From: Halobaculum magnesiiphilum
GTDB taxonomy: Archaea > Halobacteriota > Halobacteria > Halobacteriales > Haloferacaceae
Length of the DNA stretch: 64,000 bases
Direction of reading: 5' to 3'
Assembly: GCF_019823105.1 (NCBI RefSeq)
Contig: NZ_CP081958.1
Span: 2,294,001-2,358,000 of the forward strand
Numbering within the stretch: the stretch's first letter is position 1; the number at the start of each line of letters is the position of its first letter. Below, one piece after another: positions 37,926 through 38,506 of the stretch. The translations under genes and the position numbers were made by a program. The notes below the pieces were generated by a model, which saw only the letters and a list, made by a program, of their open reading frames with translations, did not search any database and was not told the origin of the DNA.

Positions 37926-38007
37926 GCCAGGATGGCCGAGTGGTAAGGCGCACGCCTGGAAAGCGTGTTCCCCTATGGGATCCAGGGTTCAAATCCCTGT
38001 CCTGGCG
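37926..38007 (+). tRNA. tRNA-Ser (GGA anticodon)
   Basis: The acceptor stem GCCAGGA pairs with TCCTGGC, with discriminator G at 38007. The anticodon stem-loop is CACGC-CTGGAAA-GCGTG with GGA, followed by a long class-II variable arm (TTCCCCTATGGGATC) and the T arm CAGGGTTCAAATCCCTG. There is no intron and no encoded CCA. Its 3' end is copied twice downstream (38144-38164 and 38303-38322). Confidence 0.95.
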
Positions 38008-38164
38008 TTTCTGACGGAGCCACACGGCGAGCGGAGCGAGCCGTGGCTCCGTGAAACCCGCGTGCAGGGATTTGAACACGGAAGTCGCAGCGCCGAGCGC
38101 GACCGAACGAAGTGAGGTCGACGCGAGGCGACCGTCTTCAGGAGTTCAAATCCCTGTCCTGGCG
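38008..38164 (+). repeat. tRNA-tail module 1
   Basis: The module begins right after the tRNA and ends with GTTCAAATCCCTG plus TCCTGGCG (38144-38164), identical to the tRNA 3' end 157 bases earlier. Inside are a hairpin (ACGGAGCCAC 38014 onward with GTGGCTCCGT to 38052), an inverted copy of the T-arm sequence, CAGGGATTTGAAC (38065-38077), and AGTCGCAGC (38083-38091). Confidence 0.75.
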
Positions 38165-38322
38165 TACTGTTCGGGGCGATACAGCGAACGAACGCAGTGA
38201 GTGAGTCGTCGCCCCGTACGTACCTGTTCGACGGGGATTTGAAGTAGACGAGTCGCAGCCCGCGCAGCGAGCGAAGCGAGCGAGCAGGACCGCCTCGGCG
38301 TGGTTCAAATCCCTGTCCTGGC
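38165..38322 (+). repeat. tRNA-tail module 2
   Basis: Same plan as module 1: a hairpin (CGGGGCGA 38172-38179 with TCGCCCCG 38209-38216), an inverted T-arm fragment GGGATTTGAA (38234-38243), AGTCGCAGC (38251-38259), and a final direct copy of the tRNA tail (38303-38322) that ends with T in place of the discriminator G. The period is 159 bases. Confidence 0.75.
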
Positions 38323-38394: not shown

Positions 38395-38506
38395 GAAAGC
38401 CCCCGGTTCGCTCGTGGCCTGCGTCTCGCTGCGCTCCTCGGCCTTCGGCCTGCGGTACTTGCGTCGCCTCGGCTCACGAGCGAACCGGCCCCTTTCAGTC
38501 CCACCC
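38395..38506 (-). repeat. Structured G-rich repeat element, copy 2
   Basis: Read on the minus strand: box A GGGTGGGACTGAAAGGGG (38506-38489), arm CCGGTTCGCTCGTG, a 58-base loop with GCAAGTACCGCAG, the complementary arm CACGAGCGAACCGG, and box B GGGCTTTC (38402-38395). The 14-bp stem is perfect but differs from the other copies. It lies between tRNA-Ser and riboflavin synthase. Confidence 0.8.

Follow-up and report, generated by a model that had tools for sequence, protein, structure and literature searches.

What are the repeated tRNA ends that follow the tRNA-Ser gene of Halobaculum magnesiiphilum, and do they represent anything beyond the scars that integrating elements leave behind? The window, by which we mean the whole stretch of 64,000 nucleotides that was analysed (contig NZ_CP081958.1, positions 2,294,001 to 2,358,000), carries on its forward strand a tRNA-Ser gene with the anticodon GGA at 37926..38007, as called by ARAGORN and matched by Rfam RF00005 with 63 bits. 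The 20-base tail GTTCAAATCCCTGTCCTGGC, whose first copy is the 3' end of this gene from the T-loop to the acceptor 3' end (37987..38006), recurs on the same strand without difference at 38144..38163 and again at 38303..38322, where it closes the array; the steps of 157 and 159 given in the sequence-only reading are exact to the base. Module 1 consists of hairpin 1 (38007..38064, forward strand, beginning with TTTCTG and with main arms at 38005-38023 and 38043-38061), an inverted T-arm piece, CAGGGATTTGAAC (38065..38077, reverse strand), and hairpin 2 (38078..38143, forward strand), in which GTCGCAG stands at 38084, ACCGTC ends at 38136, and the structure is that of the family. Module 2 comprises a hairpin 1 of unrelated sequence (38164..38229, forward strand), the inverted T-arm piece GACGGGGATTTGAA (38230..38243, reverse strand), and a hairpin 2 (38244..38302, forward strand) that runs from GTCGCAG at 38252-38258 to ACCGCC. 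The module interiors measure 137-139 bp. Both the inverted pieces and the AGTCGCAGC words lie where the sequence-only reading had placed them, and its description can be refined in that a second hairpin has AGTCGCAGC as its left foot and closes with ACCGTC or ACCGCC before the tail. The complete order is thus tail, TTTCTG or another T-rich start, hairpin 1, inverted T-arm, hairpin 2 (AGTCGCAG-loop-ACCGTCT), and tail.

The longest exact inverted match to the tail extends over 13 nt in module 1 (CAGGGATTTGAAC) and 10 nt in module 2 (GACGGGGATTTGAA), against a shuffle mean of 5.3-5.7 nt, and these lengths were reached by 0 of 2000 and 1 of 2000 shuffles, respectively. The window contains two occurrences of the pattern GATTTGAA-N3..9-GTCGCAG, both of them inside the array, against a shuffle expectation of 0.00. 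Since the inverted matches are longer than in essentially all shuffles and the pattern is found in such excess, chance is excluded as the origin of the arrangement. The modules had also been proposed to fold on themselves, and each half-module, whether tail, hairpin 1, and inverted piece or inverted piece, hairpin 2, and tail, is indeed predicted to form one long hairpin. The predicted folds range from -41 to -57 kcal/mol with z from -2.5 to -8.1; the hairpin 1 half of module 1 (37987-38077) reaches -56.6 kcal/mol with a z of -8.1, while z is -5.4 for the hairpin 2 half of the same module and -4.9 and -2.5 for the hairpin 1 and hairpin 2 halves of module 2. Just past the array, at 38395-38496 of the window, there is a 22-nt inverted repeat, GAAAGCCCCCGGTTCGCTCGTG, and in several congeners a comparable GC-rich stretch comes after the array.

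The search for the same modules behind other tRNA genes, suggested by the sequence-only reading, found them both in the window genome and across the order. In the 3.7-Mb window genome (G000), the same design stands behind about 20 tRNA genes, which include Ser-GGA and Ser-CGA, Asp, Glu, Leu, Tyr, Arg, Gly, Lys, Val, and Gln. The 200 modules sampled from haloarchaea, for which the tRNA survey drew on individual genome regions, are uniform in layout and cover 37 annotated tRNA types, these being ARAGORN labels of which a few are possibly misnamed; the modules have a median length of 136.5 bp (range, 69-261 bp). In a scan of GTDB genomes, nearly all haloarchaeal matches lay just downstream of a tRNA, usually by 45-190 nt and behind 23 anticodons, and every one was behind a tRNA or its cut-off tail, with the exception of one in a coding-like stretch; the matches outside haloarchaea were isolated, in other contexts, and without an upstream tRNA. 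An exact pattern that combines the commonest hairpin 2 type with the TTCAAATC tail was present in at least 145 of the 293 genomes and at least 59 of the 87 genera of the order, both being lower bounds, as modules with other hairpin types or T-loops escape the pattern. The same pattern was absent from all 242 genomes examined elsewhere in the phylum, and the reversed control gave 0. Many tRNAs lack modules altogether, and a module present in one genome may be absent from a close relative.

The inverted T-arm piece, which had been singled out as an unexpected addition to the tails, proved to be a regular part of the module and to track its own tRNA. Over 19 nt, the direct tail has a mean of 0.87 mismatches to its own tRNA and of 6.9 to other tRNAs, and the inverted 11-mer shows 1.45 mismatches, compared to 4.4 in shuffled modules. 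Where the T-loop of the tRNA reads TTCGAAT, the inverted copy reads TTCGAAT as well, in eight of eight cases, with Val-CAC, Gln, and Lys-TTT as examples from the window genome. Positions of the T-stem agree with the module's own tRNA in 494 of 624 instances, whereas 341 would be expected from other tRNAs. On the other hand, one version of the outer stem of hairpin 2, CGAG/CTCG, is found behind 20 different anticodons. The direct and inverted copies thus follow their own tRNA, while the interior, as represented by hairpin 2, is common to different tRNAs.

Hairpin 2 itself is conserved as a structure. Among 96 distinct sequences of its type A, eight stem positions retain Watson-Crick pairing in 88-96 sequences, with GC, CG, AT, and TA all among the pairs and three positions using 3-4 pair types; at the three most variable pairs, shuffles reached at most 57 of 96, and in shifted registers pairing drops to 6-49. 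The T.T mismatch that separates the two helices is retained in 94 of 96 sequences, and the CAG/AC internal loop is invariant or nearly so, although the constancy of the loop is partly by construction, as the search word fixes most letters of the hairpin 2 core, which does not apply to the compensatory changes. Because the T.T mismatch is kept and palindrome correction would erase it, recognition of a folded single strand is the better reading, and hairpin 2 is probably recognised in this form, either as RNA or as single-stranded DNA.

We read the modules as small DNA cassettes that are bounded by T-arm copies, turn over by site-specific and short-homology recombination, and offer their tails as extra att sites, a reading to which we give slightly less than an even chance. 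The cassette would be a discrete non-coding unit composed of hairpin 1, the inverted T-arm, hairpin 2, and a tail copying the 3' end of its own tRNA. Its behavior would follow from several features: (i) the T-arm copies may act as attB-like sites for tRNA-targeting recombinases and for short-homology recombination, and recombination at them would keep the copies matched to their own tRNA; (ii) the folded hairpin 2, with its fixed mismatch, may be bound as a single strand by a putative recombinase or nuclease; (iii) as T-arm copies bound the hairpins on both sides, these could be exchanged without damage to the tRNA; and (iv) spare tails would give integrating elements landing sites besides the tRNA. 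In these terms, what stands behind many haloarchaeal tRNA genes appears to be a type of genomic insertion that is widespread. Among the points against the cassette reading are that no recombinase gene stands consistently beside the modules in the loci examined and that the T-arm copies would have to be re-matched whenever a cassette moved to another tRNA.

Comparison of related genomes points to turnover of the arrays. The tRNA-Ser(GGA) gene is followed by two modules in the window genome, by three in each of G007 and G002, and by none in several other relatives; types of hairpin 1 and hairpin 2 combine differently among congeners, indicating reassortment, and neighboring modules within an array often carry unrelated hairpins. 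The window genome differs from a close relative at Ser, Leu, Tyr, Gly-TCC, and Gly-GCC. At Leu and Tyr, it resembles G007 minus the stretch between two inverted pieces, and at Gly-TCC the breakpoint between these two genomes falls within the loop of hairpin 1. The tRNA-Glu gene of G296 is followed by a five-module array of the form P-Q-P-Q-P', which contains exact tandem duplicates. In G092, the genes for tRNA-Ala(GGC) and tRNA-Ala(CGC), about 128 kb apart, bear near-identical modules whose identity stops at TTCAAATCC, within the T-arm of the tail; we take this as sharing between tRNA genes, although the paralogues are alike enough for ordinary gene conversion. Judged from these comparisons, the cassettes are lost, duplicated, and reassorted, with breakpoints at T-arm copies and in hairpin loops. 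A separate arrangement was seen at tRNA-Gly(GCC) of G228, where two complete genes lie about 600 bp apart and modules with identical tails follow each.

A turnover of this kind might also be passive, with inverted copies arising from the misreplication of palindromes, modules multiplying by unequal crossing-over, and tails held identical by gene conversion with the tRNA. Identical tandem duplicates and deletions within hairpin loops are what such processes would leave, palindrome correction could account for inverted pieces that follow the tRNA, and the losses from strain to strain can be plain short-repeat deletions, for example, within hairpin loops. We nevertheless consider it rather unlikely that the modules are by-products of this sort, since (i) the unrelated hairpins of adjoining modules are not given by tandem duplication, (ii) the same hairpin 2 core stands behind many tRNA types throughout the order, and (iii) palindrome correction would erase the invariant T.T mismatch and the internal loop.

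The modules could alternatively be a structured non-coding RNA that is co-transcribed with the tRNA, in which the inverted T-arm would pair with either the T-arm of the tRNA or the downstream tail and so switch tRNA maturation, or which would be processed to a stable RNA. The strong compensatory changes and the conserved mismatch and internal loop of hairpin 2, the fixed place and strand directly behind tRNAs, the very stable predicted folds, and the annotation of an analogous E. coli locus as the non-coding RNA rttR are all in line with this explanation, which we still judge unlikely. If RNA of the tRNA sense strand were the selected form, G.T pairs might be favored over A.C, but the counts are 59 versus 43 in the T-arm stem (p 0.14) and, by a crude gapless method, 13 versus 19 in hairpin 1 and 7 versus 20 in hairpin 2, which show no sign of selection on tRNA-sense RNA, although related modules are not independent cases. 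Furthermore, close relatives differ in whether a module is present and many tRNAs do without one, the T-rich run immediately 3' of the tRNA may stop transcription, the predicted fold would, if transcribed, take up the T-arm of the tRNA itself, and a search of the array region against Rfam returned the tRNA alone above the cut-off.

It had been argued that direct tails alone would be att sites, which holds in that the tails reproduce the tRNA 3' end exactly, in the manner of att sites, and integrase elements were found next to them. The tRNA-Gly(TCC) gene of G092 is followed by a module and its tail, then by 2.9 kb, a further tail, a near-identical module, and a last tail; the 2.9 kb form an element that codes for a tyrosine integrase (PF00589, 1.8e-14) and for a DUF7342 protein. 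A module likewise stands between the tRNA and an integrase element at tRNA-Glu of G272 and at tRNA-Gly of G240, bringing to three the loci (the last with an assembly gap) in which an integrase-encoding element adjoins the tail of a module and not the tRNA. Relatives of the G092 integrase lie behind a tRNA in 29 of the 30 loci inspected, usually directly; another integrase survey gave few tRNA neighbors and no module. In two other genomes, integrases with 89-91% identity to it lie directly at the same tRNA. Either the elements would have used the module tail as attB, or the modules would have entered at the tRNA later, as an integrase element could predate the module beside it; under both orders of insertion, the T-arm and tail would be a working junction. 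The ends of the 2.9-kb element bear no resemblance to hairpin 1 or hairpin 2, and it is therefore not obviously the engine of the cassettes.

It is very unlikely that ordinary integrated plasmids or viruses left the modules behind on deletion, with hairpins 1 and 2 as their left and right ends, for although the tails are of the exact att type and the same tRNAs are used by integrase elements, the ends of the sequenced element are unlike either hairpin, the layout is uniform in 200 modules, the phage collection scanned held no module, plasmids gave a single weak match (in a 987-kb Natrinema replicon), and a tighter pattern run on the viral collection hit nine contigs, of which one, with a tRNA-Gly and one complete module, was real. 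No large element came to light that would explain the tails as plain att remnants: integrase elements of relatives do sit at tail copies, yet the hairpin modules beside them are separate units. The real viral-collection contig, IMGVR_UViG_3300010222_000002, is classed as viral, and its tRNA could lie in host sequence flanking a provirus or be carried; an exact tail search of this contig gave no further tail copy. A preceding scan of viral contigs with a loose pattern was discarded, its matches being mostly due to chance. Elsewhere in the window genome, at G000:C1:722172-724011, several divergent tRNA genes, some of them low-scoring, form a cluster that looks element- or virus-derived, and no clear module was seen at any of these genes. 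Two further candidates were dropped, a guide RNA of the H/ACA or C/D type for T-loop modification because the boxes are absent by eye and an IS200/IS605-style insertion because the tail proper to each tRNA would not be copied by it.

Among known systems, the best analogue of the modules is the set of 178-bp repeats of the E. coli tyrV-rttR-tpr region (the rtT RNA locus), which are likewise tandem repeats directly behind a tRNA, each closing with a copy of the tRNA 3' end. Over positions 1285700-1287300 of E. coli K-12, the tail copies recur at a 178-bp step and enclose an inverted T-stem piece, GGGGAAGGAT, that matches exactly over 10 nt, a length attained in 4 of 2000 shuffles; the order of tail, inverted piece, and tail is thus the same. 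Unlike the modules, the E. coli repeats are seen behind a single tRNA, have a shorter tail copy (the last ~14 nt exact), possess no common hairpin 2 core, and contain an annotated RNA with a small ORF; the haloarchaeal array has no sequence or covariance match to any Rfam family other than tRNA and hence none to rtT RNA. Integron attC arrays are made up of small tandem cassettes whose imperfect hairpins carry conserved unpaired bases and are recognised as folded single strands. The modules resemble them in being tandem small units with a covarying hairpin that contains a conserved T.T mismatch and internal loop, but they appear to lack IntI, contain no ORFs, and have a tRNA end as the bounding site, and recognition of their hairpin is putative.

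Tyrosine-recombinase elements that target tRNAs (reviewed in PMC8371274) have att sites in which the 3' end of the tRNA is copied exactly behind the gene, and the modules share this feature. Unlike these elements, they hold no integrase and no genes between tail copies, and unlike plain att sites, they contain an inverted T-arm and two hairpins and stand in tandem behind many tRNAs per genome. The casposase of A. boonei recognises the T-loop word TCAAATC and duplicates its target at the tRNA end, producing a target site duplication of 14-15 bp that starts about 8 bp past this word (PMC6614799). In the modules, by contrast, the repeat is about 20 bp long, takes in the T-loop, and extends to the tRNA end, and there are no terminal inverted repeats, the unit having a variable T-rich start of hairpin 1 and a GTGG or CGG end before the tail. 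The PATEs, MITEs, and small mobile repeats of Haloquadratum, described as dispersed repeats, are also short, non-coding, palindromic haloarchaeal repeats (PMC3119063), whereas the modules are found only behind tRNAs (with the one exception in a coding-like stretch in the GTDB scan) and carry tRNA-specific copies.

The cassette reading can be carried further, to a dedicated haloarchaeal system in which an enzyme acting on the folded strand would insert, excise, and exchange hairpin cassettes at the T-arms of nearly all tRNA genes, rewriting both copies to match the host tRNA, in which the arrays would be spare sites shielding the tRNAs, and of which a bacterial relic, built on the same principle, would survive in the E. 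coli tyrV/rttR repeats; we regard this extension as speculative and unlikely in its full form. In the open-access literature, which was the scope of the search (subscription papers lying outside it), we found no earlier description of the haloarchaeal modules.

In archaea and bacteria, mobile DNA docks chiefly at tRNA genes, and tRNA fragments downstream of them are usually dismissed as att scars. Here, such fragments belong to a regular, structured, and order-wide class, whose members track each tRNA and show signs of selection on the folded strand. If confirmed, the modules would amount to a new minimal family of mobile cassettes, to a way of sparing tRNAs from integration, or to a tRNA-linked RNA family, and the long-unexplained rttR repeats of E. 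coli would gain hundreds of cases for comparison.
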